DNA from: Odontesthes bonariensis
Lineage: Eukaryota; Chordata; Actinopteri; Atheriniformes; Atherinopsidae
Direction of reading: 5' to 3'
NCBI RefSeq assembly: GCF_027942865.1
Contig: NC_134520.1
Location: 35,970,688 to 36,034,687 of the forward strand
Length of the DNA stretch: 64,000 nt
Shown: piece after piece, positions 45,198-63,934 of the stretch
How the letters are laid out: each line of letters starts with the position of its first letter
Numbering within the stretch: position 1 is the stretch's first letter
Position numbers and translations under genes: made by a program
The notes under the pieces: model-generated
What the model saw: only the letters and a program-made list of their open reading frames with translations
The model's database searches: none
Told to the model about the DNA's origin: nothing

Positions 45198-48100
45198 ATT
45201 TTCCAAAGGTAAACCCGTTTGCCCACCCCCGTAGTGCACCAACATACAAAAATGGAGCGCACCTCAGCCCCCTTACGCTGCACGAAAAGGCATTGGTCAA
45301 ACTAAACGGACATTCACCCAATCACAGACTGTTATCTGCGACCCGGCCGCCGGCCCGGGATATTTGATATTACGTCAGAGACGAACTATATTGTGAGACT
45401 TACGTGCCAGTCGTAAGTTGAACCTACTTTCGTGGAATACATCATTTTGAGTTCAGTTTTAATGTGATTTCCAAATGAGTCATTGTTTTTTAAAGACACT
45501 GCACATTTAGAAAAGAGATTTTTGTTGCCAATTGTTACACTGTTCAAGTGGGCTAAAGTTATGAAAGGCTAACGTCACGTTAGCATGAAGCTATGTAGCA
45601 CTATGAAGTGGTACCTTGAGTTACGAGTGTCCCGACATACGAGTTTTTTTAGTTAAGAGCCGTTGTTATGACGCTGAAGTTGGCATCCGATTAACCAGAC
45701 TCCGATTTGCGAATTAAACGGATAGGCATAAAGGGCCATTTCACTGCATTTATTGCATTTTAATTGGCCAAAACAAGGTTTTTTTTTTTTTTTTAAGTTT
45801 TTTTTTCGTTTTTTTTCAGGAACTTCGTAGCCTACAGTAAATCCACGGTGATGACTCCGTGATAGTGATTAAATGTTACATTTTGTGATTACAAATGTGT
45901 AGATTATGATACCGTACCTCTATTGTGAGGCTGGACCTTTTTATATACAGTCTATGGGCTTGATGTGGTGCTCATGTGCCACCCCTGGAACACCCCCACA
46001 TTTAAAATCACTGCTCCACCCCTGCTTTCACTGTTCTTTTATTGTTTTTATTTGTTTTTACTTCTTCTTCTCTTTATTTATTACCTGCTGTAAAGCACTT
46101 TGGTACACCGTCGGACTTTATTTATCACTAAATGAACAAAAAGGCTTCAGTCAGCTGCAGCTTCACCGACTAAAGCAATTATTAAGGTTATTTCTCTGAG
46201 GTGCACTGAAACATGTTCGCATCTGTTTGACTCAGGAGCCGATGGACGTCGTGGAGCTGTTCGGACTGAAGGGCGTTCAGCACACGCCAATCAGCATCAA
46301 GAACGCCAGAGTGTCGCAGGTAACGTGCAGCCCGCTCATTTAGAACGACACGGATGGTGTTTTTGGGGAAAAGTTTCCACTGATGATCGTTAATGTGTCT
46401 CTCGTCTCGATCTCAGCACTACAAAGCGAGTCTGACTGCGACCTTCAACCTTCACCCGGTCAGTCTCACCGCCGGCACGTGTTCGCTGATTAATGTTTAG
46501 TTTGGCTGCGTCGGCGCCTCTGATCTGTTGCTTTTCATTCAATCAGGAGGCAAACTTTGCCATCATACTGGAGGAAGACCTGGATGTGTCCATCGACTTC
46601 TTCAGGTACACGTTGAACATGGTCCAACCAGGGCTGGGCAACGATTAACATGTTTCATCTAATTAATCACATGATTTCCCTGATTAATCACGATTAATCG
46701 CATTTGTACGCAGAATCCAAAAATGAATCCAAAAGTAGTGTATAGCTTTTAGCATTTAGCTTTATTTTAAATGTGCTGCCATATGAATGAAAGTGCCATA
46801 ACATTTGTTGTGCAAACACACTTTTAACATCAGCATCTTTCTGTAGTTTTTATGTAGAAGCCTCGCTCCACTGTCTGTTTCCTTGAATGACTTGCTGCTA
46901 TCAGTTGTGTGTTTTGCCTTTAAGTGATATTTTAGACTGGAACTACTACGCTGAGAAGACAATTCAACTTGGCAGTGTTTACAGATGACTTTGGTTCTGT
47001 CGACTCCGCCGTCTGGAAGAACTTAAACATGAAAATGGCCGAGTAAAAGTTCCGTACCCTTCTCCATGTTTGGTGGATCCGCCGATTACTTTCTTTTCCT
47101 GTTCCACAGCAGACAGCAGCAGACTTTTACAAAATAAAAGCCTGTGAGCAACAGACTTTTACAATAATAAAAGCCTGTGAGCAACAGACTTTTACAGAAT
47201 AAAAGCCTGTGAGCAACAGACTTTTACAAAATAAAAGCCTGTGAGCAACAGACTTTTACAATAATAAAAGCCTGTGAACAACAGACTTTTACAAAATAAA
47301 AGCCTGTGAGCAACAGAAAATATTTATCGGCGTTAAATAATTAGCGAGTTGATGCGATAATAACGAGTTAACTCGCCCAGCCCTAGTTTCAACAAATCAC
47401 TGCAACTGTTTTCATGGAAACGTGTACAGAAATGAGGGCTGGATCGAGTTGTCTTTCAGTAGAAGGTGTAGTTTGTATCTGGTGGTTAGTCCTGGCATCG
47501 GAACATGGTTGCAGAACATGGTTACCAGTCTGTAACCAGTACAGCATCCCCACGGCAGCACCTTCTGAGAAAGTCCTGCTAGGATCTCTGAAGTTAAACA
47601 CTCTTGACTCAGGCCTTCAGACCCTGTCATGTCACACCTTTACCACCAGGTGGCAGCAGATCCTCAGCTGCTCTCAGATCTGGACTCTCCAGCCTTCCTT
47701 TGTTTGACTTTCTGCTTTGAACTCCTTGTTCTGTTTATCGGTTTGAAGAAACAACTTCAAATAGCTTAGAAGCCATCGCCCCCTCCATTGATGTGAGTTT
47801 CGTTTGGAGAGCAGTAAAACCAAACCGGAGGGTTTTCTTTGGTTTATGAGTGTAATCGCTGCTCTTCTACAGTCCTGTCCTCAGTTCAGCTTCACCAAAC
47901 ATCAGCTGGATATCTACAGAGTCCAGTTAAACCTTTATGCTGCAGCATTATTGGCCCGTTCGCTTCCTGTTTGACTGTAACTGTGCTCCAGTTGTCCACA
48001 GTTTACTGCCGGGGTCGTTAATCCTGAACCTCCTTTGTGTTTCCGGCAGTTTCCTGAGTCAGACCGTCCACCTGCTGGATGAAGACGACAGTCTGTACTG

Positions 48101-51100
48101 TATCTCAGCCTGGAACGACCAGGTGAGCGTCGGCTGCACTTCAGATCATAATTAAAACTCTTTAACTAAACTACCTTCACACCAAACTGTTTAATTTCAT
48201 ACATTTAGCCACAACTCTTGTTTTAGGTCATTTTTTACATTTTTAAGAAGTCGCTTTTGTCCAATAACTTCTGGGTTTTGGAAGGCTGTAACGTCCCATG
48301 TTGAGAATCATTGCTCTATCCAAACATACTGATGGCATCACATTGGCTTCCTGTGGACCTCTGAGTCATCTTTGACCAGATTTTGTCATTTAACCTTGTA
48401 GCACCCACAGTTGCAGATATGCAACTGCCAATAAACCAAAAATATTGGTTTATTCCCACCCATTTTTACATAAAATGTAATGTAAAAAAATATTACACAT
48501 GAATGTAAATAATGTATGTAAATTTAAAAAATCAAATAATGTAAATAAAAATATAATGTAAAATATAGCTGCAAGCAGCGATGTGGGGGTCCTAGCAGAA
48601 TGGCACAATAGGGAAGGCTTGGGCTGCTCAGGAAGGCGTCGTGAGTCCATGCACCAAGTTTGGCATCGATACATCAATGCATCGCAGAGATACGGCCAAA
48701 TGTCCCATTTGCGCGTCGGCATGGAGTTTGATTGGCTGCCGCGGTTACACGGAAGTTAATTAAAAATATCCACATAATAACTTATGTGCGGCTTGGTCTG
48801 AAGATTCTATGTGCCAAGTCCCGTGGAGATTGGACAATCTTAGTGGCCTGAAATGCATTTTGAAGGTTTTTGATTAAATTCAAAATGGCGGACAATCCAA
48901 GATGGTGCAAATGATGTCATTAAGTGTGTTGACCTCGTCCTTATCCAGGGATTCTACTGGTACCTCATTTGTGAAATGTGGACCAAGGGGTCCAAAGATA
49001 TGAGCAAAAATGCATTTTTGCTACATATAGCGACACCTATAGGCCGAACGTCACCAAACTTCTTGGGCCTCTTACCTTAGCAGTCTTGAGTCTGTGTTAT
49101 AAGTTTAACGTCATGATATCAAATGGTTGCCAAGATATGACCTCACTTCCAGTTTGGGGGCGTCAACCTCGAGTTTGATTGGCTTTCATGGAAAAATGGA
49201 AGCCTAATTAAAAATTCCACACAATAACTTTTGTGCGGCTTGGTCTTAAGAGTCTATGTACCAAGTTTCGTGAAAATTGGACAATCTCTGTGACCTGAAA
49301 TGCTTTTTTAAGCTTTTTGATAAAATTCAAAATGGCGGAAAATCTAGGCATACGCAAATTGACGTCATAGGGTGCGTTGGACTCGTCATGATCCAAGGAT
49401 TCCAAGGATGCCTCATTTGTGAAATTTGGACAAAGTAGTCAAAAGTTATTAGGCTGAATGCACTTTGAACTTTGGCGTGTTGGTGGCGCTAGAGAGTAAG
49501 GTCTAGGGCCATGAAAATTCTTGAGTTTGCTTTTGGCACTTGGCTGATTAAGTGTGCCAAATTTCACAACTTTTTACCATAGCGTTCATGGGGCTGCCAT
49601 AGACTTCAATTGCAGAAGAAAGTAGAAGAAATATAGCTGCAAGCAGCGATGTGGGGGTCCTAGCAGAATGGCACAATAGGGAAGGCTTGGGCTGCTCAGG
49701 AAGGCGTCGTGAGTCCATGCACCAAGTTTGGCATCGATACATCAATGCAGCGCAGAGATACGGCCAAATGTCCCATTTGCTCGTCGGCATGGAGTTTGAT
49801 TGGCTGCCGCGGTTACACGGAAGTGAAATAAAAAAATCCACATGATAACTTATGTGCGGCTTGGTCTGAAGATTCTATTTGCCAAGTTCCGTTGAGATTG
49901 GACAATCTCAGTGGCCTGAAATGCTTTTTGGAGGTTTTTGATTAAATTCAAAATGGCGGACAATCCAAGATGGCGCAAATGACGTCATTAAGTGTGTTGA
50001 CCTCGTCCTTATCCAGGGATTGTACTGGTACCTCATTTGTGAAATGTGGACCGAGGAGTCCAAAGTTAAGAGCAAAAATGCATTTTTGCTACATATAGCG
50101 CCACCTATAGGCCGAACGTCACCAAACTTCTTGGGCGTCTTACCTTTGCAGTCTTGAGTCTGTGTCATAAGTTTGACGTCATGATATCAAATAGTTGCCA
50201 AGATATGACCTCACTTCCGGTTCGGGGGCGTCAACCTTGAGTTTGATTGGCTTTTATGGAAAAATGAACGCCTAATTAAAAATTCCACACGATAACTTTT
50301 GTGCGGCTTGGTCTTAAGAGTCTATGTGCCAAGTTTCGTGAAAATTGGACAATCTCTGTGACCTGAAATGCTTTTTTAAGCTTTTTGATAAAATTCAAAA
50401 TGGCGGAAAATCTAGGCATACGCAAATTGACGTCATAGGGTGCGTTGGACTCGTCATGATCCAAGGATTCCAACGATGCCTCATTTGTGAAATTTGGACC
50501 AAGTAGTCCAGAGTTATTAGGCTTAATGCACTTTGAACTTTGACGTGTTGGTGGCGCTAGAGAGTAAGCTTTTGGGGCATGAAATTTCTTGACTTTGGTT
50601 TTGGCACTTGGCTGATTAGGTGTGCCAAATTTCACAACTTTTTACCATAGCGTTCATGGGGCTGCCATAGACTTCAATTGCAGCGGAAAGTAGATCAAAT
50701 ATAGCTGCAAGCAGCGATGTGGGGGTCCTAGCAGAATGGCACAATAGGCAAGGCTTGGGCTGCTCAGGAAGGCGTCGTGAGTCAATGCACCAAGTTTGGC
50801 ATTGATACATCAATCCATCGCAGAGATACGGCCAAATGTCTCATTTGCGTGTCGGCATAGACTTTGATTGGCTGCCACGGTTAAACGGAAGTGAAATAAA
50901 AAAAATCCACATGATAACCCATATGCGGCTTGGTCTGAAGATTCTATGTGCCAAGTTCCGTGGAGATTGGACAATCTCAGTGGCTTGAAATGCTTTTTGA
51001 AGGTTTTCGATTAAATTCAAAATGGCGGATAATCCAAGATGGCGCATATGACGTTATTTGTTACCTTGACCTCGTCTGCATTCAGGGATTCCAACGGTAC

Positions 51101-54100
51101 CTCATTTGTGAAATTTGGCCCAAGGGGTCCAAAGATATGAGCAAATATGCATTTTTGCTACATATAGCGCCACCTATAGGCCGAACGTCACCAAACTTCT
51201 TGGGCCTCTTACCATAGCAGTCTTGAGTCTGTGTCATAAGTTTGACGTCATGATATCAAATGGTTGCCAAGATATGATCTCACTTCCGGTTTGGGGGCGT
51301 CAACCTCGAGTTTGATTGGCTTTTATGGAAAAATGGAAGCCTAATTAAAAATTCCCTTGGATAACTTTTGTGCGGCTTGGTCTGAAGAGTCTATGTGCCA
51401 AGTTTCGTGATAATTGGACAATCTCTGTGACCTGAAATGCTTTTTTAAGCTTTTTGATAAAATTCAAAATGGCGGAAAATCTAAGTATACGCAAATTGAC
51501 GTCATAGGTTGCATTGGACTCGTCATGATCCAAGGATTCCAATGATGCCTCATTTGTGAAATTTGGACCATGGAGTCCAAAGTTATTAGGCTTAATAGAC
51601 TTTGAACTTTGACGTGTTGGTGGCGCTAGAGAGTAAGCTCTTGGGGCATGAAAATTCTTGACTTTGGCTTTGGAACTTGGCTGATTACGTGTGCCAAATT
51701 TCACAACTTTTTACCATAGCGTTCATGGGGCTGCCATAGACTTCAATTGCAGCGGAAAGTAGATCAAATATAGCTGCAAGCAGCGATGTGGGGGTCCTAG
51801 CAGAATGGCACAATAGGCAAGGCTTGGGCTGCTCAGGAAGGCGTCGTGAGTCAATGCACCAAGTTTGGCATCGATACATCAATGCATCGCAGAGATCCGG
51901 CCAAATGTCCATTTTGCGCGTCGGCATGGAGTTTGATTGGCTGCCGCGGTTACACGGAAGTGAAATAAAAAAATCCACATAATAACTTATGTGCGGCTTG
52001 GTCTGAAGATTCTATGTGCCAAGTCTCGTGGAGATTGGACAATCTTAGTGGCCTGAAATGCGTTTTGAAGGTTTTTAATTAAATTCAAAATGGCGGACAA
52101 TCCAAGATGGCGCAAATGACGTCATTAAGTGTGTTGACCTCGTCCTTATCCAGGGATTCTACTGGTACCTCATTTGTGAAATGTGGACCAAGAGGTCCAA
52201 AGATATGAGCAAAAATGCATTTTTGCTACATATAGCGCCACCTATAGGCCGAACGTCACCAAACTTCTTGGGCCTCTTACGTTACCAGTCTTGAGTCTGT
52301 GTTATAAGTTTGACGTCATGATATCAAATGGTTGCCAAGATATGACCTCACTTCCGGTTTGGGGGCGTCAACCTCGAGTTTGATTGGCTTTTATGGAAAA
52401 ATGGAAGCCTAATTAAAAATTCCACACGATAACTTTTGTGCGGCTTGGTCTTAAGAGTCTATGTGCCAAGTTTCGTGAAAATTGGACAATCTCTGTGACC
52501 TGAAATGCTTTTTTAAGCTTTTTGATAAAATTCAAAATGGCGGAAAATCTAAGTATACGCAAATTGACGTCATAGGGTGCGTTGGACTCGTCATGATCCA
52601 AGGATTCCAATGATGTCTTGTTTGTGAAATTTGGGCCAAGTATTCAAAAGTTATTAGGCTGAATGCACTTTAAAATTTGACGTGTTGGTGGCGCTAGAGA
52701 GTAAGCTCTTGGGCCATGAAAATTCTTGAGTTTGTGATTGGCACTTGGCTGATTAAGTGTGCCAAATTTCACAACTTTTTACCATAGCGTTCATGGGGCT
52801 GCCATAGACTTCAATTGCAGCAGAAAGTAGAGGAATAATAATAATAAATATAGCTGCAAGCAGCGATGTGGGGGTCCTAGCAGAATGGCACAATAAGCAA
52901 GGATTGGGCTGCTCAGGAATGCGTCATGAGTCCATGCACCAAGTTTGGCATTGATACATCAATGCATGGCAGAGATACGGCCAAATGTCCTGTTTGCGTG
53001 TCGCCGTAGAGTTTGATTGGCTGCCGCGGTTAAACCGAAGTGAAATAAAAAAATTCACATGATAACTTATGTGCTGCTTGGTCTGAAGATTCTATGTGCC
53101 AAGTCCCGTGGAGATTAGACAATCTCAGTGGCCTGAAATGCTTTTTGAAGGTTTTCAATTAAATTCAAAATGGCGGACAATCCAAGATGGCGCAGATGAC
53201 GTCATGATGTGGGTTGATCTTGACTATATCCAGGGATTCCAACGGTACCTCATTTGTGAAATTTGGACCAATGGGTCCAAAGATATGAGCAAAAATGCAT
53301 TTTTGCTACATATAGCGCCACCTATAGGCTAAACGTCACCAAACTTCGTTGGCCTCTTACCGGCCTGGATATGAGTCTGTGTTAGAAGTTTGACGTCATA
53401 ACATCAAATGGTTACCAAGATATGGCCTCACTTCCGGTTTGGCGGCGTCAACCACGAGTTTGATTGGCTTTTATGGAAAATCGGAAACCTAATTAAAAAT
53501 TCCACCCAATAACTTTTGTGCGGCTTGGTCTTAAGAGTCTATGTGCCAAGTTTTGTGAAGATTGAACAATCTGCGTGGCCTGAAATGCTTTTTTAAGCTT
53601 TTTGATAAAATTCAAAATGGCGGAAAATCTAAGTATACGCAAATTGACGTCATAGGGTGCGTTGGACTCGTCATGATCCAAGGATTCCAACGATGCCTCA
53701 CTTGTGAAATTTGGACCAAGTAATCCAAAGTTATTAGGCTGAATGCACTTTGAACTTTGACGTGTTGGTGGCGCTAGAGAGTAAGGTCTTGGGGCATGAA
53801 ATTTCTTGACTTTGGCTTTGGCACTTGGCTGATTACGTGTGCCAAATTTCACAACTTTTTACCATAGCTTTAATGGGGCTGCCATAGACTTCAATTGCAG
53901 CGGAAAGTAGAAGAATAATAATAAGAAAAGCTACTAACACAATGGGTTCCTGCAGCTTCGCTGCTAGGACCCCCAATAATAGGAAAAGCTACTAACACAA
54001 TGGGTTCCTGCAGCTTCGCTGCTAGGACCCCCAAATATAGCTGCAAGCAGCAATGTGGGGGTCCTAGCAGAATGGCACAATAGGGAAGGCTTGGGCTGCT

Positions 54101-57100
54101 CAGGAAGGCGTCGTGAGTCCATGCACCAAGTTTGGCATCGATACATCAATGCATCGCAGAGATACGGCCAAATGTCCCATTTGCGCGTCGGCATGGAGTT
54201 TGATTGGCTGCCGCGGTTACACGGAAGTGAAATAAAAAAATCCACATAATAACTTATGTGCGGCTTGGTCTGAAGATTTTATGTGCCAAGTCTCGTGGAG
54301 ATTGGACAATCTTAGTGGCCTGAAATGCGTTTTGAAGGTTTTTGATTAAATTCAAAATGGCGGACAATCCAAGATGGCGCAAATTACGTCATTGAGTGGG
54401 TTGACCTCGTCCTTATCCAGGGATTCTACTGGTACCTCATTTGTGAAATGTGGACCAAGGGGTCCAATGATATGAGCAAAAATGCATTTTTGCTACATAT
54501 AGCGCCACCTATAGGCCGAACGTCACCAAACTTCTTGGGCCACTTACCTTAGCAGTCTTGAGTCTGTGTTATAAGTTTGACGTCATGATATCAAATGGTT
54601 GCCAAGATATGACCTCACTTCCGGTTTGGGGGCGTCAACCTCGAGTTTGATTGGCTTTTATGGATAAATGGAAGACTAATTAAAAATTCCCTTGGATAAC
54701 TTTTGTGCGGCTTGGTCTGAAGAGTCTATGTGCCAAATTTCGTGATAATTGGACAATCTCTGTGACCTGAAATGCTTTTTTAAGCTTTTTGATAAATTTC
54801 AAAATGGCGGAAAATCTAGGTATACGCAAATTGACGTCATAGGGTGCGTTGGACTCGTCATGATCCAAGGATTCCAACGATGCCTCATTTGTGAAATTTG
54901 GACCATGGAGTCCAAAGTTATTAGGCTTAATGTACTTTGAACTTTGACGTGTTGGTGGCGCTAGAGAGTAAGCTCTTGGGGCATGAAAATTCTTGACTTT
55001 GGCTTTGGCACTTGGCTGATTACGTGTGCCAAATTTCACAACTTTTTACCATAGCGTTCATGGGGCTGCCATAGACTTCAATTGCAGCGGAAAGTAGAAG
55101 AATAATAATAATAAGAAAAGCTACTAACACAATGGGTTCCTGCAGCTTCGCTGCTAGGACCCCCAAATATAGCTGCAAGCAGCGATGTGGGGGTCCTAGC
55201 AGAATGGCCCAATAGGGAAGGCTTGGGCCGCTCAGGAAGGCGTCGTGAGTCCATGCACCAAGTTTGGCATCAATACATCAATGCATCACAGAGATACGGC
55301 CAAATGTCCCATTTGCGCGTCGGCATGGAGTTTGATTGGCTGCCGCGGTTACACGGAAGTTAAATAAAAAAATCCACATAATAACTTATGTGCGGCTTGG
55401 TCTGAAGATTCGATGTGCCAAGTCCCGTGGAGATTGGACAATCTTAGTGGCCTGAAATTAGTTTTGAAGGTTTTTGATTAAATTCAAAATGGCGGACAAT
55501 CCAAGATGGCGCAGATGACGTCATTAAGTGTGTTGACCTCGTCCTTATCCAGGGATTCTACTGGTACCTCATTTGTGAAATGTGGACCAAGGGGTCCAAA
55601 GATATGAGCAAAAATGCATTTTTGCTACATATAGCGCCACCTATAGGCCGAACGTCACCAAACTTCTTGGGCCTCTTACCTTAGCAGTCTTGAGTCTGTG
55701 TCATAAGTTTGACGTCATGATATCAAATGGTTGCCAAGATATGACCTCACTTCCGGTTTGGGGGCGTCAACCTCGAGTTTGATTGGCTTTTATGGAAAAA
55801 TTGAAGCCTAATTAAAAATTCCACACGATAACTTTTGTGCGGCTTGGTCTTAAGAGTCTATGTGCCAAGTTTCGTGATAATTGGACAATCTCTGTGACCT
55901 GAAATGCTTTTTTAAGCTTTTTGATAAAATTCAAAATGGCGGAAAATCTAAGTATACGCAAATTGACGTCATAGGGTGCGTTGGACTCATCAAGATCCAA
56001 GGATTCCAACGATGCCTCATTTGTGAAATTTGGACCAAGTAGTCCAAAGTTATTAGGCTGAATGCACTTTGAACTTTGGCGTGTTGGTGGCGCTAGAGAG
56101 TAAGCTCTTGGGGCATGAAAATTCTTGAGTTTGCTTTTGGCACTTGGCTGATTAAGTGTGCCAAATTTCACAACTTTTTACCATAGCGTTCATGGGGCTG
56201 CCATAGACTTCAATTGCAGCGGAAAGTAGAGGAATAAATATAGCTGCAAGCAGCGATGTGGGGGTCCTAGCAGAATGGCACAATAAGCAAGGCTTGGGCT
56301 GCTCAGGAAGGCGTCGTGAGTCCATGCACCAAGTTTGGCATCGATACATCAATGCATCGCAGAGATACGGCCAAATGTCCCATTTGCGCGTCGGCATGGA
56401 GTTTGATTGACTGCCGCGGTTACACGGAAGTTAAATAAAAATATCCACATAATAACTTATGTGCGGCTTGGTCTGAAGATTCTATGTGCCAAGTCTCGTG
56501 GAGATTGGACAATCTTAGTGGCCTGAAATGCGTTTTGAAGGTTTTTGATTAAATTCAAAATGGCGGACAATTCAAGATGGCGCATATGACGTCATGATGT
56601 GCATTGACCTCGGCTGCATCCAGGGATTCCATTGGTACCTCATTTATGACATTTGGACCAAGTGGTCCAAAGATATGGGCAAAAATACATTTTTGCTACA
56701 TATAGCGCCACCTATGGGCCGAACGTCACCAAACTTCTTGGGCCTCTTACCTTAGCAGTGTTGAGTCTGTGTCATAAGTTTGACGTCATGATATCAAATG
56801 GTTGCCAAGATATGACCTCACTTCCGGTTTGGGGGCGTCAACCTCAAGTTTGATTGGCTTTTATGGAAAATTGGAAGCCTAATTAAAAATTCCACACGAT
56901 AACTTTTGTGCGGCTTGGTCTTAAGAGTCTATGTGCCAAGTTTCGTGAAAATTGGACAATCTGTGTGACCTGAAATGCTTTTTTAAGCTTTTTGATCAAA
57001 TTCAAAATGGCGGAAAATCTAGGTATACGCAAATTGACGTCATAGGGTGCGTTGGACTCGTCATGATCCAAGGATTCCAATGATGTCTTGTTTGTGAAAT

Positions 57101-60100
57101 TTGGACCAAGTAGTCCAAAGTTATTAGGCTTAATGTACTTTGAACTTTGACGTGTTGGTGGCGCTAGAGAGTAGACTCTTGGGCCATGAAAATTCTTGAG
57201 TTTGTGATTGGCACTTGGCTAATTACGTGTGCCAAATTTCACAACTTTTTACCATAGCGTTCATGGGGCTGCTATAGACTTACATTGCAGCAGAAATTGA
57301 AGAATAATAATAAATATAGCTGCAAGCAGCGATGTGGGGGTCCTAGCAGAATGGCCCAATAGGCAAGGCTTGGGCTGCTCAGGAAGGCGTCGTGAGTCCA
57401 TGCACAAAGTTTGGCATCGATACATCAATGCATCGCAGAGATACGGCCAAATGTCCCATTTGCGCGTCGGCATGGAGTTTGATTGGCTGCCGCGGTTATA
57501 CGGAAGTTAAATAAAAAAATCCACATAATAACTTATGTGCGGCTTGGTCTGAAGATTCTATGTGCCAAGTCTCGTGGAGATTGGACAATCTTAAAGGCCT
57601 GAAATGCGTTTTGAAGGTTTTTAATTAAATTCAAAATGGCGGACAATCCAAGATGGTGCAAATGACGTCATTAAGTGTGTTGACCTCATCTGTATCCAGG
57701 GATTCTACTGATACCTCATTTGTGAAATGTGGACCAACGGGTCCAAAGATATGAGCAAAAATGCATTTTTGCTACATATAGCGCCACCTATAGGCCGAAC
57801 GTCACCAAACTTCTTGGGCCTCTTACCTTAGCAGTTTTGAGTCTGTGTTATAAGTTTGACGTCATGATATCAAATGGTTGCGAAGATATGACCTCACTTC
57901 CGGTTTGGGGGCGTCAACCTTGAGTTTGATTGGCTTTTATCGAAAAATTGAAGCCTAATTAAAAATTCCACACGATAACTTTTGTGCGGCTTGGTCTTAA
58001 GAGTCAATATGCCAAGTTTCGTGATAATTGGACAATCTGTGTGACCTGAAATGCTTTTTTAAGCTTTTTGATAAAATTCAAAATGGCGGAAAATCTAAGT
58101 ATACGCAAATTGACGTCATAGGGTGCGTTGGACTCGTCATGATTCAAGGATTCCAATGATGTCTTGTTTGTGGAATTTGGGCCAAGTATTCAAAAGTTAT
58201 TAGGCTGAATGCACTTTGAACTTTGGCGTGTTGGTGGCGCTAGAGAGTAAGCTTTTGGGGCATGAAATTTCTTGACATTGACTTTGGCACTTGGCTGATT
58301 ACGTGTGCCAAATTTCACAACTTTTTACCATAGCGTTCATGGGGCTGCCATAGACTTCAATTGCAGCGGAAACGGATCAATAATAACAAGCAGCAATGTG
58401 GGGGTCCTAGCAGAATGGCACAATAGGGAAGGCTTGGAACGCTCAGGAAGGCGTCGTGAGTCCATGCACCAAGTTTGGCATCGATACATCAATGCATCAC
58501 ATAGATACGGCCAAATGTCCCATTTGTGCATCGGCATGGAGTTTGATTGGCTGCCGCAGTTACAGGGAAGTTAAATAAAAAAATCCATATAATAACTTAT
58601 GTGCGGCATGGTCTGAAGATTATATGTGCCAAGTCCCGTGGAGATTGGACAATCTTAGTGGCCTGAAATGCGTTTTGAAGGTTTTTGATTAAATTCAAAA
58701 TGGCGGACAATCCAAGATGGCGCAGATGACGTCATTAAGTGTGTTGACCTCGTCCTGATCCAGGGATTCCATTGGTACCTCATTTGTGAAATGTGGACCA
58801 AGGGGTCCAAAGATATGAGCAAAAATGCATTTTTGCTACATATAGCGCCACCTATAGGCCAAACGTCACCAAACTTCTTGGGCCTCTTACTTTAGCAGTC
58901 TTGAGTGTGTGTTATTAGTTTAACGTCATGATATCAAATGGTTGCCAAGATATGACCTCACTTCCGGTTTGGGGGCGTCAACCTCGAGTTTGATTGGCTT
59001 TTATGGTAAAATGGAAGCCTAATTAAAAATTTCACACGATAACTTTTGTGCGGCTTGGTCTTAAGAGTCTATGTGCCAAGTTTCGTGATAATTGGACAAT
59101 CTCTGTGACCTGAAATGCTTTTTTAAGCTTTTTGATAAAATTCAAAATGGCGGAAAATCTAAGTATACGCAAATTGACGTCATAGGGTGCGTTGGACTCG
59201 TCATGATCCAAGGATTCCAACGATGCCTCATTTGTGAAATTTGGACCAAGTAGTCCAAAGTTATTAGGCTTAATGCACTTTGAACTTTGACGTGTTGGTG
59301 GCGCTAGAGAGTAAGCTCTTGGGGCATGAAAATTCTTGACTTTGGCTTTGGCACTTGGCTGATTACGTGTGCCAAATTTCACAACTTTCTCGCATAGCGT
59401 TCATGGGGCTGCCATAGACTTCAATTGCAGCAGAAACGGATCAATAATAATAAGAAAAGCTACTAACACAATGGGTTCCTGCAGCTTCGCTGCTAGGACC
59501 CCCAATAATAATAATAGGAAAAGCTACTAACTCAATGGGTTCCTGCAGCTTCGCTGCTAGGACCCCCAAATATAGCTGCAAGCAGCAATGTGGGGGTCCT
59601 AGCAGAATGGCCCAATAGGCAAGGCTTGGGCTGCTCAGGAAGGCGTCGTGAGTCCATGCACCAAGTTTGGCATCGATACATCAATGCATCGCAGAGATAC
59701 GGCCAAATGTCCCATTTGCGCGTCGGCATGGAGTTTGATTGGCTGCCGCGGTTACACGGAAGTTAAATAAAAAAATCCACATAATAACTTATGTGTGGCT
59801 TGGTCTGAAGATTCTATGTGCCAAGTCTCGTGGAGATTGGACAATCTTAGTGGCCTGAAATGCGTTTTGAAGGTTTTTGATTGAATTCAAAATGGCGGAC
59901 AATCCAAGATGGCGCAAATGACGTCATTAAGTGTGTTGACCTCGACCTTATCCAGGGATTCTATTGATACCTCATTTGTGAAATTTGGTCCAAGGGGTCC
60001 AAAGATATGAGCAAAAATGCATTTCTGCTACATATAGCGCCACCTATAGGCCGAACGTCACCAAACTTCTTGGGCCTCTTACCTTAGCAGTCTTGAGTCT

Positions 60101-61702
60101 GTGTGATAAGTTTGACGTCATGATATCAAATGGTTGCCAAGATATGACCTCACTTCCTGTTTTGGGGCGTCAACCTCGAGTTTGATTGGCTTTTAAGGAA
60201 AAATGGAAGCCTAATTAAAAATTCCACACGATAACTTTTGTGCGGCTTGGTCTTAAGAGTCTATGTGCCAAGTTTCGTGATAATTGGATAATCTCTGTGA
60301 CCTGAAATGCTTTTTTAAGCTTTTTGATAAAATTCAAAATGGCGGAAAATCTAAGTATACGCAAATTGACGTCATAGGGTGCGTTGGACTCGTCATGATC
60401 CAAGGATTCCAATGATATCTTGTTTGTGAAATTTGGGCAAAGTATTCAAAAGTTATTAGGCTGAATGCACTTTGAACTTTGACGTGTTGGTGGCGCTAGA
60501 GAGTAAGCTCTTGGGGCATGAAATTTCTTGACTTTGGCTTTGGAACTTGGCTGATCACGTGTGCCAAATTTCACAACTTTTTACCATAGCGTTCATGGGG
60601 CTGCCATAGACTTCAATTGCAGCGGAAAGTAGATCAATAAATATAGCTGCAAGCAGCAATGTGGGGGTCCTAGCAGAATGGCCCAATAGGCAAGGCTTGG
60701 GCTGCTCAGGAAGGCGTCTTGAGTCCATGCAACAAGTTTGGCATCGATACATCAATGCATCGCAGAGATACGGCCAAATGTCCCGTTTACGCATCGGCGT
60801 AGAGTTTGATTGGCTGTCGCGGTTACACGGAAGTGAAGTAAAAAAATCCACATGATAACTTATGTGCGGCTTGGTCTGAAGATTGTATTTGCCAAGTTCC
60901 GTCGAGATTGGACAATCTCAGTGGCCTGAAATGCTTTTTGAAGGTTTTCGATTAAATTCAAAATGGCGGACAATCCAAGATGGCGCTCATGACGTCATGA
61001 CGTGCATTGACCTCGGCTGCATCCAGGGATTCCATTGGTACCTCATTTGTGACATTTGGACCAAGGGGTCCAAAGTTATGAGCAAAAATGCATTTTGGCT
61101 ACATATAGCGCCACCTATAGGCCGAACGTCACCAAACTTCTTGGGCCTCTTACCATCTTGGTCGTAAGTCTGTGTTATAAGTTTGACATCATAACATCAA
61201 ATGGTTACCAAGATATGGCCTCACTTCCGGTTTGGGGGCGTCAACGTCGAATTTGATTGGCTTTTATGGAAAAATGGAAGCCTAATTAAAAATTCCCTTG
61301 GATAACTTTTGTGCGGCTTGGTCTTAAGAGTCTATGTGCCAAGTTTCGTGTAAATTGGACAATCTCTGTGACCTGAAATGCTTTTTTAAGCTTTTTGATA
61401 AAATTCAAAATGGCGGAAAATCTAGGCATACGCAAATTGACGTCGTAGGGTGCGTTGGACTCGTCATGATCCAAGGATTCCAACGATTCCTCATTTGTGA
61501 AATTTGGACCAAGTAGTCCAAAGTTATTAGGCTTAATGCACTTTGAACTTTGACGTGTTGGTGGCGCTAGAGAGTAAGCTCTTGGGGCATGAAAATTCTT
61601 GACTTTGGTTTTGGCACTTGGCTGATTAGGTGTGCCAAATTTCACAACTTTTTACCATAGCGTTCATGGGGCTGCCATAGACTTCAATTGCAGCGGAAAC
61701 GG

Positions 61703-61733
<31 letters not shown>

Positions 61734-63934
61734 GGAAAAGCTACTAACTCAATGGGTTCCTGCAGCTTCGCTGCTAGGACCCCCAATAATAATAATAGGA
61801 AAAGCTACTAACACAATGGGTTCCTGCAGCTTCGCTGCTAGGACCCCCAATAATAATAGGAAAAGCTACTAACACAATGGGTTCCTGCAGCTTCGCTGCT
61901 AGGACCCCCAATAATAGGAAAAGCTACTAACACAATGGGTTCCTGCAGCTTCGCTGCTAGGACCCCCAATAAATAAAAAGCTTGTTGCATATCTGCAACT
62001 GTGGTTGCTACAAGGTTAAAGCAACACTGGAGAAATCTTTGACTCATTTTGAAGTTCACTGACTTTTTTTACACACATTTCTGGGCCTGAAACTGCCTTC
62101 GCGCTCCCAGAGAATGAAGCTGTGGGTTGTGCATGTGCAGGGCTCAGATGGTGGAGTTACACTTCCCAACAGCAGGGGGAGCCAAAGAGCAAGAAATTAG
62201 CCAAATTCTCTCGTTTTGCGTCCGTCTGCCTGATGTTACCAAGGTTACCGGAGGAATAAAACGCCATCTTCAGCTGGGTTTAAGAGAGTCGGAGCGCTCG
62301 TGTGATCTCGGTCGTTTGATGGTAATAAAACTCAGTCCACGCTGTTTTAAGGCGGTATTTCTCACATCAAAATCAAACCTGTTTAATATCATCAGAAAGT
62401 CTTGTTTCATTTAAATTGGGACCCTGAAAGATCTTCAGTCTGTGACTTTAAACTGTGTTTAAAGTTGTGTTCGAAACCGCATACTACATACTACATATTA
62501 GATATTACATATTACATACTACATACTTCCATACGGCCTGAAGCTGATTTCCCTTAAGCTCTAAACTCTGTAAACTTTAACAACATTTGAAACATTTTCA
62601 GGTGAGAAAGTAGTCGTTTAGATCCCCAACGTGTTGAAAACCTGACAAAATACCGGCTGTTTACAATTTTGTTACCACGAATTCGGCGCTGCTAAAGCTA
62701 GCCGCAGTGAGCTAACGCACTTCCTGTTATTTTCACAAAATAAAATACCCGTTGCCTTTTATCATAGGGAAAGCCATTACCATACAATTGGTGCTTTTGT
62801 TTTGAAAACAGGAAGTGAACCTACCCTCGTTGTAGCTAGCTTGAAACTGCCGTTTTGACAGGAAATGACGATCGGCGACGTCACATTACGTTGCGTCTTG
62901 GGTAGTTTGAGTATGAGTAGTAACCTCATGATGAATACCCAACATTTCGGAGAATCTAGTATGCATCCGGGAAAAAAGTCAGTATGAGTAGTAGGAGAAG
63001 TATGCGGTTTCGAACACAGCCTCTGACTTTGTGTTTAGATGTGAGAGGGTGTCAGGAGTTGGTCTGTTAAAGATCTTTGTCAGGTTTCATCAGTTCTCTG
63101 GGCTGTGGAAGGTTTTAACTGGGCAAAATACATCTGGGAGGTGTTTACTTCCTCCAGACACTGACACAGTACGTCTGCTGGGCTGCAGTTGCCACGGTGA
63201 CAGAGACACATAAAGTTGTGTATCGTCTGCATAAACTGTGATAATTGATGTTAAAGTTCTGCAATATCTGACCCAAAGGGAGCATATACAAGTTAAACAG
63301 AAGAGGTCCAAGAATTGACCCCTGGGGGACTCCACAAGTCATGGCCACTCGCTCAGATTCATAGATGGATGGATGGTTTAGGCCCAAAATACATCTGTGA
63401 TCTGTTCAGAGAATATAAAGCCAGCAGAGCTCTTAGATCCAAGGACTCAGGTCAGCTGGTCCAGTCCAGAGTCCAGACTAAACATGGAGAAGCAGCATTT
63501 AGCTGTTATGCTGCAAACAAGTGGAACAAACTGCCAGTGGAGATTAAACCCTGCTGCAATGCTTTTATTTTATGTGAAGCACTTTGAATTGTTTTGTACA
63601 TGAAATGAGCTACAGATAAATTTGATTTGATTTGATAATGGCCAAACTCCATCTTATCTGTAAAGTGTTGTTTACCCTCAGCCCACAGCAACTGTTCTCT
63701 TTGTTAGAATCTTTTATATTTTGTGTATTTTTAGTAGCTTTTTATGTGTAGTGGTAGGCTTGATGTGCTCGGAGAACCTTCATGTGACGGCTGTTGTTGT
63801 AACAGGGCTACGAGCACACAGCGGAGGACCCGGCCCTGCTCTACAGGGTGGAGAGCATGCCCGGTCTGGGCTGGGTGCTGAAGAAGAGCATCTACAAGGA
63901 CGAACTGGAGCCAAAATGGCCGACGCCCGAAAAG
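35137..63934 (+). CDS. pomgnt1: POMGNT1, protein O-linked-mannose beta-1,2-N-acetylglucosaminyltransferase 1 (15 exons, 3' end outside window)
   Basis: Golgi type II membrane enzyme that transfers GlcNAc from UDP-GlcNAc to O-linked mannose, notably on alpha-dystroglycan; human defects cause muscle-eye-brain disease. The 15 exons encode residues 1-466 of about 660. Order: cytosolic tail with [15 protein letters not shown] (19-33); membrane anchor [17 protein letters not shown] (about 42-58); stem domain beginning [19 protein letters not shown] and continuing through [18 protein letters not shown]; then the GT13-type catalytic domain with [20 protein letters not shown] and the metal-binding EEDLD (388-392). 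All 14 complete introns are GT-AG and every phase matches. The C-terminal third is off the right edge. Introns are transposon-rich, and intron 14 is about 15.7 kb because of a 13.6-kb insertion. Confidence 0.95.
35495..35640 (-). mobile_element. L2-like LINE 3' end in pomgnt1 intron 1
   Basis: On the minus strand: AATGCTTTTATTTTATGTGA, AGCACTTTGAACTGTTTG and GCTATATAAATTAATTTGAT, the L2 3' tail, preceded by a short [16 protein letters not shown] frame. A near-identical piece lies at 42350-42478. Confidence 0.7.
36069..36732. mobile_element. Palindromic MITE copy 2, with a duplicated 21-bp end
   Basis: TTAA at 36065-36068 precedes AGGGACAGTTCACCTCTTCT. The right arm ends AGAAGAGGCGAACTGTCCCT at 36711, followed by TTAA and one additional 21-bp copy of the end (36712-36732), then TTAA at 36733-36736. 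The arms are inverted copies of each other, matching 8699-9358. The extra 21-bp unit is the same sequence that forms the satellite at 24825-26391. Confidence 0.88.
37215..37317 (+). CDS. pomgnt1: pomgnt1 coding exon 2
   Basis: Acceptor CCCCCGCAG; encodes [20 protein letters not shown], the membrane anchor, then [14 protein letters not shown]. Donor G|GTAAGA, ends in phase 1. Confidence 0.93.
37435..37550 (+). CDS. pomgnt1: pomgnt1 coding exon 3
   Basis: Acceptor CTCCTGCAG; encodes [18 protein letters not shown] and [19 protein letters not shown]. Donor ACT|GTGAGT, phase 0. Confidence 0.93.
37857..38713. repeat. 124-bp minisatellite in pomgnt1 intron 3
   Basis: About seven tandem copies of a 124-bp unit containing GTTACCATGGAAACATCTGC, TTTAAAGCTGCTCAGAACTG and GGTTCTGCCTCAGATTCTGG. 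GTTACCATGGAAAC matches the RFX X-box consensus closely. A single inverted copy lies at 3763-3908. Confidence 0.92.
38872..38937 (+). CDS. pomgnt1: pomgnt1 coding exon 4
   Basis: Acceptor ACTCTGCAG; encodes [20 protein letters not shown] then AT. Donor ACT|GTGAGC, phase 0. Confidence 0.92.
39060..39173 (+). CDS. pomgnt1: pomgnt1 coding exon 5
   Basis: Acceptor GTGTTTCAG; encodes [20 protein letters not shown] then [18 protein letters not shown]. Donor AAG|GTGAGT, phase 0. Confidence 0.93.
39246..39363 (+). CDS. pomgnt1: pomgnt1 coding exon 6
   Basis: Acceptor CCCCGCAG; encodes [20 protein letters not shown] and [17 protein letters not shown]. Donor GGAG|GTAGAG, ends in phase 1. Confidence 0.92.
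39430..40440. mobile_element. Probable inverted-repeat DNA element in pomgnt1 intron 6
   Basis: Segments near 39645-39745 and 40290-40395 are imperfect reverse complements, sharing GAGACCAGAATGAATGG and GCAGTTCCACC. The central part is non-coding. Exact ends and target duplication were not resolved. Confidence 0.5.
40440..40605. mobile_element. Fragment of the GTGTTCGAAACCGC transposon family
   Basis: Matches 4245-4346 joined to 5230-5280, including CCACAATGCATTTCGCTCCT and AGCCGGCCTGAAGCTGATTT. It reads through the single TTAA (CCCTTAAGCTCTAAACTC) where the 4.2-kb copy has its nested insertion, so it is an empty site. Confidence 0.75.
40610..41685. repeat. 74/76-bp minisatellite in pomgnt1 intron 6
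   Basis: About 14 tandem units containing TTAGCGTTAGCTGCTGCTAA and TAGAAGCTGGTGTACGTCA. Two length classes differ at AAAGGAGAAAATAAC (74 bp) and AAAGGAACAGCAATAAC (76 bp) and occur in blocks rather than at random. It ends just before the GT-rich acceptor of exon 7. Confidence 0.92.
41721..41819 (+). CDS. pomgnt1: pomgnt1 coding exon 7
   Basis: Acceptor TGTGTGCAG after a GT microsatellite; encodes [20 protein letters not shown] then [12 protein letters not shown]. Donor GAAG|GTACGG, ends in phase 1. Confidence 0.93.
41923..42050 (+). CDS. pomgnt1: pomgnt1 coding exon 8
   Basis: Acceptor GCTGTGCAG; encodes [20 protein letters not shown] and the cysteine-containing [20 protein letters not shown]. 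Donor CCG|GTGAGA, phase 0. Confidence 0.93.
42350..42478 (-). mobile_element. L2-like LINE 3' end in pomgnt1 intron 8
   Basis: Close match to 35500-35625 on the minus strand: AATGCTTTTATTTTATGTAA, AGCACTTTGAACTGTTCTG and an AAATTTGATTTGA tail. Confidence 0.7.
42735..42955 (+). mobile_element. L2-like LINE tail in pomgnt1 intron 8
   Basis: AT-rich DNA followed by GTGAAGCACTTTGCTCAGC, GTGCTTTATAAATACATTTT and GAATTGAATG, the L2-style 3' end, in the same orientation as the gene. Confidence 0.65.
43045..43115 (+). CDS. pomgnt1: pomgnt1 coding exon 9
   Basis: Acceptor CTCCTCCCAG; encodes [20 protein letters not shown] then YLY, the start of the catalytic domain. Donor ACAG|GTGAGG, ends in phase 2. 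Confidence 0.93.
43561..43636 (+). CDS. pomgnt1: pomgnt1 coding exon 10
   Basis: Acceptor CTGTTTCCAG; encodes [20 protein letters not shown] then DGYYE. Donor GAG|GTACCA, phase 0. Confidence 0.93.
44440..44765 (-). mobile_element. L1-type LINE ORF2 C-terminal fragment
   Basis: The minus strand reads [34 protein letters not shown] and [12 protein letters not shown], the C-x3-C-x7-H cysteine region and following helix of L1 ORF2. It is upstream-truncated and lies in pomgnt1 intron 10. Confidence 0.75.
44770..46170 (+). mobile_element. L2-like LINE fragment split by a 924-bp insertion
   Basis: [20 protein letters not shown] and a later [17 protein letters not shown] are the C-terminal L2 protein region. 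The copy is interrupted at 45099 and resumes at 46024 with GCTTTCACTGTTCTTTTATT, ending with CTGTAAAGCACTTTGG. Confidence 0.7.
45100..46023. mobile_element. Unclassified 924-bp insertion with a 10-bp target duplication
   Basis: GCTTTCACTG lies at 45090-45099 and again at 46024-46033. The insert begins ATGGGCGTCGCACCCGTGG and ends CACTGCTCCACCCCT. Both ends carry a similar direct motif (ACACCCCCACTTTTA and ACACCCCCACATTTA). It contains C-rich and T-rich runs and no coding region. Superfamily unknown. Confidence 0.6.
46236..46319 (+). CDS. pomgnt1: pomgnt1 coding exon 11
   Basis: Acceptor TTTGACTCAG; encodes [20 protein letters not shown] then IKNARVSQ. Donor CAG|GTAACG, phase 0. Confidence 0.93.
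46417..46458 (+). CDS. pomgnt1: pomgnt1 coding exon 12 (42 nt)
   Basis: Acceptor CGATCTCAG; encodes only [14 protein letters not shown]. Donor CCG|GTCAGT, phase 0. The exon is too short for ordinary open-frame detection but is fixed by frame and by the family sequence. Confidence 0.9.
46547..46605 (+). CDS. pomgnt1: pomgnt1 coding exon 13 (catalytic metal-binding motif)
   Basis: Acceptor TTCAATCAG; encodes [19 protein letters not shown], which holds the EEDLD motif that binds Mn2+ and the donor nucleotide-sugar in GT13-type enzymes. Donor CAG|GTACAC, ends in phase 2. Confidence 0.93.
46629..47388 (-). mobile_element. hAT-like element with BED finger and 32-bp minisatellite (pomgnt1 intron 13)
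   Basis: Both ends carry AGGGCTGGGC in inverted orientation (46630 and 47380). On the minus strand, from the right: GGGCGAGTTAACTCG, the 32-bp repeat (47118-47320), the ATG at 47067, a nonsense codon about 15 codons in (TTTAAG for TTTTAAAG), then the BED finger [11 protein letters not shown] (about 46900-46960). It is a dead copy of the element at 20690-21560. Flanking target duplication is not clear. Confidence 0.7.
47389..48049. other. Remainder of pomgnt1 intron 13
   Basis: No repeat family or exon was recognised. The interval ends in the acceptor TTTGTGTTTCCGGCAG of exon 14. Confidence 0.4.
48050..48122 (+). CDS. pomgnt1: pomgnt1 coding exon 14
   Basis: Acceptor TTCCGGCAG; encodes [20 protein letters not shown] then WNDQ. 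Donor CAG|GTGAGC, phase 0. A 15.7-kb intron follows. Confidence 0.93.
48563..61970 (+). repeat. Array of twelve ~1.07-kb hairpin-ended repeat units
   Basis: All twelve units are in the same orientation, starting at 48563, 49631, 50699, 51768, 52848, 54035, 55167, 56238, 57314, about 58385, 59570 and 60641. Each begins ATATAGCTGCAAGCAGC, then GATGTGGGGGTCCTAGCAG, and most run 1068-1080 bp to an ATAATAATAA-like tail. Units 5, 6, 10 and 12 end with one to four extra copies of a 3' module finishing GCAGCTTCGCTGCTAGGACC. GGGGGTCCTAGCAG and CTGCTAGGACCCCC are exact inverted repeats. The start of unit 10 is degraded. There is no coding sequence; the recurrent ~119-codon minus frames are shadows of the repeat. 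Confidence 0.93.
61717..61970 (+). repeat. Four tandem 3'-terminal modules at the end of the array
   Basis: Each module reads AATAATAGGAAAAGCTACTA, then ACACAATGGGTTCCTGCAGC and TTCGCTGCTAGGACCCCC. Spacing varies with the number of AAT repeats. Single or double modules end units 5 (53930-54034), 6 (about 55105-55166) and 10 (about 59450-59569). Confidence 0.9.
62016..62463. other. pomgnt1 intron 14 sequence right of the composite element
   Basis: No family or exon was recognised. The left end begins with the TTAA target site followed by AGCAACACTGGAG, presumably the original intron continuing from GATTTTGTCAT at 48389. Confidence 0.4.
62464..63021. mobile_element. GTGTTCGAAACCGC transposon, uninterrupted copy
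   Basis: The ends GTTGTGTTCGAAACCGCATA and GCGGTTTCGAACACAGCC are inverted repeats. The body matches 5230-5715, including AGTAGTCGTTTAGATCCCCA and GCTAACGCACTTCCTGTTAT. It reads CCCTTAAGCTC at the site where the 4.2-kb copy holds the nested element. At 558 bp it gives the empty-site form. Confidence 0.8.
63050..63640 (+). mobile_element. L2-like LINE with inverted 5' part (twin-priming structure)
   Basis: The left part (about 63060-63360) encodes RT sequence on the minus strand: [20 protein letters not shown] and the catalytic [11 protein letters not shown]. The right part (about 63370-63640) encodes the downstream region on the plus strand: [20 protein letters not shown] and [15 protein letters not shown]. 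It ends with GTGAAGCACTTTGAATTG and GATTTGATTTGAT. The two segments are adjacent and oppositely oriented, as twin priming produces. Confidence 0.8.
63806..63934 (+). CDS. pomgnt1: pomgnt1 coding exon 15 (last in window)
   Basis: Acceptor TTGTAACAG; encodes [40 protein letters not shown] and PEK. The proposed donor AAAG|GTGTGG is weak. The frame would stay open further, but the family sequence diverges after PEK, so I end the exon there. Confidence 0.85.

Follow-up and report, generated by a model that had tools for sequence, protein, structure and literature searches.

HINEs, the non-autonomous elements of the Helentron (Helitron2) type, insert at TT and carry a 3′ palindrome together with an inverted repeat of 12–15 bp, found at the 5′ end and again offset from the 3′ end (PMC4067079). 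The Helitron2 elements of Fusarium have a 5′ hairpin with GAA between its arms, an ATATTTT 3′ terminus and an asymmetric inverted repeat about 20–40 bp from the 3′ end (PMC5148889). Tandem rows of Helitrons have been ascribed to replication past the end signal (PMC4067079), and for one Fusarium case, a three-copy row, repeated insertion and rolling-circle replication past the end were both left open (PMC5148889). A comparable but far longer row lies in the stretch of Odontesthes bonariensis DNA analyzed here (contig NC_134520.1, positions 35,970,688 to 36,034,687; the window, 64,000 nucleotides). Twelve head-to-tail units of ~1.07 kb each, with nine tails of ~60 bp, stand in an intron of the gene pomgnt1, enclosed by the two ends of a piggyBac-type miniature inverted-repeat transposable element (MITE).

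This apparent macrosatellite very probably arose by serial nested self-insertion of Helentron-type elements into their own landing pad, begun inside the MITE. A piggyBac-type MITE of ~0.25 kb would first have settled in the pomgnt1 intron, at a TTAA site. A HINE of ~1.1 kb, moved in trans by a relative encoding Rep/helicase and presumably by a rolling-circle mechanism, would then have entered the AT-rich interior of the MITE at an AA, which reads TT on the strand of the HINE. The (AAT)n run between the ~1-kb body of the HINE and its tail, the ~60-bp 5′-terminal hairpin, would have offered a series of TT targets confined to one strand, and further copies from elsewhere in the genome would have landed in such runs one by one and in the same orientation, each new insertion pushing the older tails to the right. 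If all twelve units were nested in this way, the outcome would be head-to-tail bodies with tails gathered at the ends of branches, a look-alike of a satellite made by self-nesting.

The unit, its ends and its copies in the genome

The array occupies positions 48561–61967 and consists of twelve units, the number also given in the first-pass annotation of this DNA, arranged head to tail. Its unit, which had been described as a single hairpin repeat, is instead a body of ~1,068 bp with a hairpin end, followed in the window by zero to four copies of the tail. On the plus strand, units start on the left with (AA)ATATAGCTGCAAGCAGC, and the right end of the array reads ...CTAGGACCCCC(AA). Judged from the ends, the Helentron 5′ to 3′ sense is probably that of the minus strand, on which a unit reads TT, GGGGGTCCTAGCAGCGAAGCTGC (inverted repeat and hairpin), the interior, CTGCTAGGACCCCC, ACATC, GCTGCTTGCAGC (hairpin), TATAT and TT. 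The 14-bp inverted repeat GGGGGTCCTAGCAG lies at the 5′ end with its complement ~22 nt from the 3′ end, and GCTGCTTGCAGC is the 3′ palindrome that precedes the terminal TATAT. The array has no coding capacity (longest stop-to-stop frame, 122 aa). Within the unit body at 55165–56235, positions 153–458 and 600–906 are 76% identical, and the body may therefore itself be an old dimer. Unit bodies also carry AAGATGGCG and TGACGTCA motifs (49949–49990, and likewise in other units), which we take to resemble YY1 and CRE sites. A scan of IMG/VR with the unit tail gave no matches.

These minus-strand ends match the published anatomy of Helitron2 elements and Helentrons, on which both the sense and the class of the unit are assigned; the best reading of the end anatomy is that the unit is a HINE. 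With HINEs and DINE-1 (PMC4067079), it shares the TT target, the 5′ and offset 3′ inverted repeat, the 3′ palindrome, the lack of coding sequence and the presence of Rep-encoding relatives in the genome, and with DINE-1 also an inner microsatellite. It differs from them in that copies nest in each other's microsatellite, giving multi-kilobase rows, and its repeat lies ~22 nt from the 3′ end, compared with 38–60 bp in the HINEs of mites (PMC4067079). The Fusarium elements FoHeli1/2 resemble it in the GAA hairpin at the 5′ end, the ATATTTT 3′ terminus and the asymmetric inverted repeat, set ~20–40 bp from the 3′ end (38–51 in FoHeli1/2), and self-insertion was proposed there as the source of repeated 5′ termini (PMC5148889). 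However, their target preference is TNAT/A and the cases are few (PMC5148889), whereas O. bonariensis holds about a thousand units with a mosaic composition that favors serial insertion. In the oyster, satellite-like arrays dispersed through the assembled genome are likewise tied to non-autonomous Helentrons (Cg_HINE), but the monomers there are ~140–180 bp long and lie inside one element, whereas each ~1.1-kb repeat here is a whole element (PMC7492417).

In the source assembly (945 Mb, 187 contigs), 17 of 582 candidate stretches were scored against unit 7, and their 90 matches form rows of units on many chromosomes. The left end of the unit has 1,034 matches in the genome (control, none). All ten left ends read begin with ATATAGCTGCAAGCAGC and share the start ATATAGCTGC, and eight of them are preceded by AA; all eight right ends read stop at CTAGGACCCCC, with CCCCC last, and are followed by AA. 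Across the 90 unit starts compared, 87 are preceded by AA, which is TT on the other strand. Two copies (L082 and L083) are single units with the same ends. The ~1.07-kb unit is itself a mobile element. Genome-wide, tails number 1,075 and bodies 1,034, about one tail per body, although zero to six tails follow a given body locally.

Relatedness and probable nesting of the units

The units compared come from 16 array places (the window included), two single units and a cluster on contig C3 at 28.94 Mb, and comprise 90 unit starts, 77 of them with a complete body. Of 2,752 pairs of bodies from different contigs, 44 are at least 99.3% identical, whereas none of the 54 adjacent pairs reaches this level; some pieces of the same or neighboring arrays count as different contigs in this comparison (C21:21.12/21.13, C21:32.53/32.54, the two C15:12.45 pieces and the two C3:28.9 pieces). 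Mean identity is alike in the two classes, at 94.2% for different-contig and 94.0% for adjacent pairs, so that adjacent units differ by ~6%. Of 72 units, 66 find their best match in a different contig (a few of these contigs being pieces of one array). Where both sequences were available, the neighbors of near-identical pairs were at least 99% identical in 1 of 16 cases on the left and 1 of 32 on the right, and in 43 of the 44 pairs exact identity extended at most 9 bp leftward beyond the unit start. From these identity, neighbor and boundary counts, it appears that units arrive singly from elsewhere.

The window array offers two clear cases. Unit 12 shares 99.9% of its body sequence with three C1 units but at best 93.5% with any unit of its own array; its single mismatch over 1,148 bp to one C1 unit, first tail included, comes from an earlier comparison in which 8 of 45 rows were out of register. 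For the body of unit 10, identity reaches 99.5% with a C3 unit and 96.2% with the best match in its own array. Divergence between units of the window array bears no relation to the distance between them (rho −0.03, permutation p 0.55). Thus, the array shows the head-to-tail repeats of a classical satellite but lacks local homogenization, by which neighbors would be more alike. In-place expansion was rejected given the missing relation of divergence to distance, the best relatives in other arrays and the absence of adjacent pairs at or above 99.3%; copying of multi-unit blocks was rejected given how seldom neighbors are shared. One scenario in the first-pass annotation had a repeat entering the MITE and then expanding. 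The entry of one element into the MITE is retained here, whereas growth would have come from the arrival of further copies.

The places in which units start bear on nesting. A body with (AAT)nAA precedes 40 of the 90 unit starts; others are preceded by a tail, either with AA immediately after it (22) or with (AAT)nAA in between (11). Another AA, at the left ends of arrays and in short runs, precedes 14, and three have no AA. The most informative junction emerged from a comparison of six rows with alpha-type bodies. In C6, C3, C1 and C19, the alpha-type body reaches its own tail via 9, 9, 8 and 7 AAT copies, respectively. The two-unit array of C7 reads alpha body, five AAT copies, an inserted unit with its tail, four AAT copies and one more tail, and the two parts of the run add up to nine. 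This split run indicates that tails move to the right. Bodies and tails are balanced in the four small cases that are complete (1/1 twice, 2/2 and 3/3). In the window, where all tails are on the minus strand, two follow unit 5 (53917–54033), one follows unit 6 (55109–55164), two belong to unit 10 (58376–59567 with its tails), which is without its first ~10 bp, and four belong to unit 12 (60639–61967 with its tails). Neighboring units within 6 kb lie on the same strand in 71 of 71 cases among the first 100 places listed (C1–C3). Since (AAT)n offers AA on one strand only, a common orientation would be forced on nested copies if the element inserts in AA/TT one-way.

Several observations weigh against serial nesting. 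The innermost window units do not stand out clearly as younger, with best matches elsewhere of 99.9, 99.5, 97.2 and 94.1%, compared with 94.4–98.5% for the others, and identical units occur within one array in C28 (two) and C1 (three). Since only 17 of the 582 candidates were scored, the nearest relatives found for the units are lower bounds. Tails are too few in the window (12 bodies, nine tails) and in C1 (eight bodies, seven tails, left end unread). Both C7 tails belong to a single variant, which prevents assignment of the second by sequence, and the signatures of tails and bodies gave no decisive pairing (compared without C3:40.96 and the 12450252 piece of C15:12.45). From its left end, C3:40.96 Mb reads body-tail-body-tail-tail, an order that pure nesting does not allow; perhaps a two-tailed unit was transposed whole, an explanation put forward for FoHeli (PMC5148889). 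The validity of the arrays as nested brackets is weak evidence when taken alone, as 63% of random tail placements also pass in the window (in this test, the strings of C21:21.13 and C1 each received one body by hand, the former because the pattern had missed the start of that body). Three unit starts lack AA, namely the left ends of L068 and L082 and that of unit 10 in the window. Finally, one inverted junction at C15:12.451 Mb breaks the rule of orientation: at ~1491–1501 of L057 (C15:12450252–12454322), a plus-strand row that carries two tails meets a row on the minus strand, and no other inverted junction was seen in the loci read.

The MITE frame and the alternatives

The host gene was recognized from three joined pieces of flanking exons, which match human POMGNT1 (PDB 5ggf, E 2e-48). 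The intron, delimited by this peptide match and by gt..ag splice ends, spans 48123–63805 on the plus strand (15,683 bp) and measures 2,057 bp without the element, in agreement with the growth from 2.1 to 15.7 kb given in the first-pass annotation. The frame identified there is borne out as well. A TTAA duplication stands on each side (48390–48393 and 62016–62019), and the 32-bp terminal inverted repeats at 48394–48425 (plus strand, with a GTTGCA..TGCAAC palindrome inside) and 61984–62015 (minus strand) differ by one mismatch and are the only two matches to this repeat in the whole window (up to three mismatches). With the element removed, the joined empty site reads GTCATTTAAAGCAACACTG; the string proposed earlier for this site had one T too many, and the genome search with it (no matches) is uninformative. 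The repeats had been thought to enclose little else besides the array. However, 48394–48560 (plus strand) is the AT-rich left part of a MITE (GC 0.25), 94–97% identical to five short complete copies, and 61968–62015 (plus strand) is its right part.

The 32-bp end has 458 matches in the genome (up to three mismatches) and none for a reversed control, so that the match is not a matter of chance. Fifty of these loci were read, 30 first and then 20, taken as exact-match ends in contig order rather than at random; the first 30 include two pairs that are the two ends of one element. An exact TTAA lies outside 27 of the 30 ends. Seven of the 30 loci, representing five distinct elements, are complete, array-free copies that measure 211–254 bp with both TTAA counted; a further 17 have a longer form (420–1,057 bp) and a different second end, and the remaining six have no second end within 1.4 kb. 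Both ends in the window carry the terminal motif CCTT, in line with the CC[C/T]T motif given for piggyBac-type ends (PMC2872659). The frame is a real piggyBac-type MITE by its TTAA duplication, its CCTT ends and its many short copies, as the first-pass annotation had proposed. Coral CMITE and other piggyBac-type MITEs are similarly small, non-coding and multi-copy, with TTAA duplications and CC[C/T]T ends (PMC2872659), whereas the inverted repeats of the short MITE here are longer, at 32 bp, and contain a palindrome. The longer forms (L005, L015, L021 and others) have one end in common with the short MITE but differ in their interior and in the second end, which is shorter; together, the two forms probably make up a family with exchanged internal parts. 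Among the 100 MITE ends listed (C1–C15), many lie in the first ~13 Mb or the last ~10 Mb of chromosomes.

The right MITE part in the window aligns with the last 52 bp of the short MITEs, and the array sits between ...AATATAATGTA and AATAAATAAAAAGC. Because it lies between known stretches of the MITE, the other MITE copies act as its empty site. By this comparison, the insertion of the array would have duplicated 0 or 2 bp (AA), provided that the copy hit was without ~12 bp of the AT-rich part, as the length variation of the MITE suggests. The MITE would have been in place first.

That the piggyBac-type MITE mobilized a finished array as cargo, the composite transposon of the first-pass annotation, would account for the intact TTAA and the near-identical inverted repeats around the array, and a single move by cut and paste would leave no donor copy. 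Nevertheless, the right junction between array and MITE occurs once in the genome, in this window (up to three mismatches). No units were present at any of the 50 MITE-end loci, with ~1–2 kb read on each side. Sixteen flanking stretches of 36 to 1,500 bp, taken from other arrays and from single units, contain no MITE. These results give no sign that MITE and array move together; the array as MITE cargo was rejected on their account, and a composite transposon is very unlikely. MITE or foldback elements that enclose a tandem array are known from Xenopus (miDNA4 and Xstir; PMC12628747) and Drosophila (Tetris; PMC4079207). There, the array is part of the element family, whereas here a second mobile element is nested in one MITE copy. 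It is similarly hard to credit that termination was bypassed in a single rolling-circle event and a concatemer of one element was inserted, even though such read-through has been published as the origin of tandem Helitron arrays (PMC4067079), a related model exists (PMC12628747), and the single strand of all 71 listed neighbors and the in-phase ends would fit it. A concatemer predicts near-identical neighbors, which are absent from the 54 adjacent pairs while 44 of the 2,752 different-contig pairs are near-identical, and tails are about as numerous as bodies genome-wide.

Satellite growth by unequal exchange, combined with conversion between arrays on different chromosomes, could draw on the identical units in C28 and C1, which imply some local duplication or repeated arrival. 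Yet divergence in the window array is independent of distance, the array ends read are in phase, and 43 of the 44 near-identical pairs lose their identity at the unit start, a boundary that conversion tracts would ignore; there is thus little probability in this explanation. Integrons hold rows of mixed cassettes in one orientation with imperfect-palindrome ends, and the mixed, co-oriented units with palindromic ends resemble such rows. Site-specific recombination of circular cassettes at the hairpin ends, in the manner of a Crypton or an integron, is still improbable, as insertion occurs at varied AAs of the (AAT)n run with no fixed core, the AA sites occupied by single elements and by array ends are unrelated, and the unit arms on C3 flank a Rep-type frame rather than a tyrosine recombinase, for which no directed search was made. 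Least likely is an artefact of assembly that joined unrelated repeat copies. Repeats of high identity are hard to assemble, but the sixteen array places differ in unit composition, the ends read have proper host flanks, and the MITE and its TTAA close correctly around the window array. Serial self-nesting of a Helentron-type element remains the favored explanation.

A probable partner and a possible origin of macrosatellites

A source of transposition functions may lie close to the units. The Pfam family Helitron_like_N has 126 matches in the genome and none in 14 control genomes, and many of the frames are open over 2,400–3,000 codons. Eight matches lie inside, between or within 36 kb of unit clusters and on the same strand (C1:12.681, C3:28.953, C3:40.995, C3:41.028, C3:46.377, C15:12.400, C17:2.037 and C21:8.210 Mb); seven of these frames have 2,683–2,825 codons and the one on C1 has 1,382. 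Four more matches on C15 lie 50–125 kb from the nearest scored unit. Proximity was compared for units listed or scored, and the left ends listed reach into C3. At C3:28.94–28.96 Mb, the left arm of a Rep frame begins with the hairpin end of the unit (unit positions 1–190 at 92.6%), and the right arm corresponds to unit positions 221–1026 (813 bp at 91.5%) up to the end of the body, after which the next unit follows. The Rep-encoding element found at unit clusters is likely the autonomous partner of the unit; the stretch between the C3 arms was read in part, so that the partnership is likely rather than proven. Two points speak against it. The C3 Rep frame runs against the Helentron sense deduced from the ends, being encoded on the other strand, and neither a tail of its own nor an endonuclease domain was seen in the pieces of the partner read at C3. 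Reversed frames have been reported for a Helentron (PMC4067079) and for some FoHelis (PMC5148889). Same-strand clusters of Rep-encoding Helitron frames (~2,400–3,000 codons) also occur at C23:27.1–27.47, C24:27.75–27.94, C4:37.9–38.03 and C20:1.43–1.56 Mb, as if autonomous copies of other subfamilies pile up too.

Other repeats surround the array in pomgnt1. The preceding intron holds six copies of a 32-bp tandem repeat (AGCAACAGACTTTTACAAAATAAAAGCCTGTG) at 47115–47317. A frame at 63145–63405 (minus strand), in the same intron as the array, presumably represents a fragment of a LINE reverse transcriptase, and another in the window at 46762–47022 (minus strand) resembles what we take to be the BED zinc finger of a hAT-like element.

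Each part of the system is of a known kind. Among the matches listed in a search of open-licence PMC papers, no description was found of Helentron self-nesting in an own microsatellite as a source of arrays, and a literature search with sequence strings returned only papers unrelated by title. So far as searched, what would be new is the nesting of an element in its own copies on such a scale, with its inner microsatellite serving as the landing pad. Cassette-like units, the split run and displaced tails favor repeated insertion, in many arrays of one genome. For annotation, a tandem array found within inverted repeats need not be the cargo of the outer element. Self-nesting would provide a route from transposon to macrosatellite without unequal exchange, and a possible reason why such elements keep an inner microsatellite. 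More tentatively, the (AAT)n run may be a maintained self-docking site that makes one insertion the platform for the next, so that autonomous and non-autonomous lineages collect one-way like integron cassettes; this might be a general route by which dispersed macrosatellites of fish are born, and the reason for the microsatellites within HINEs and DINE-1.

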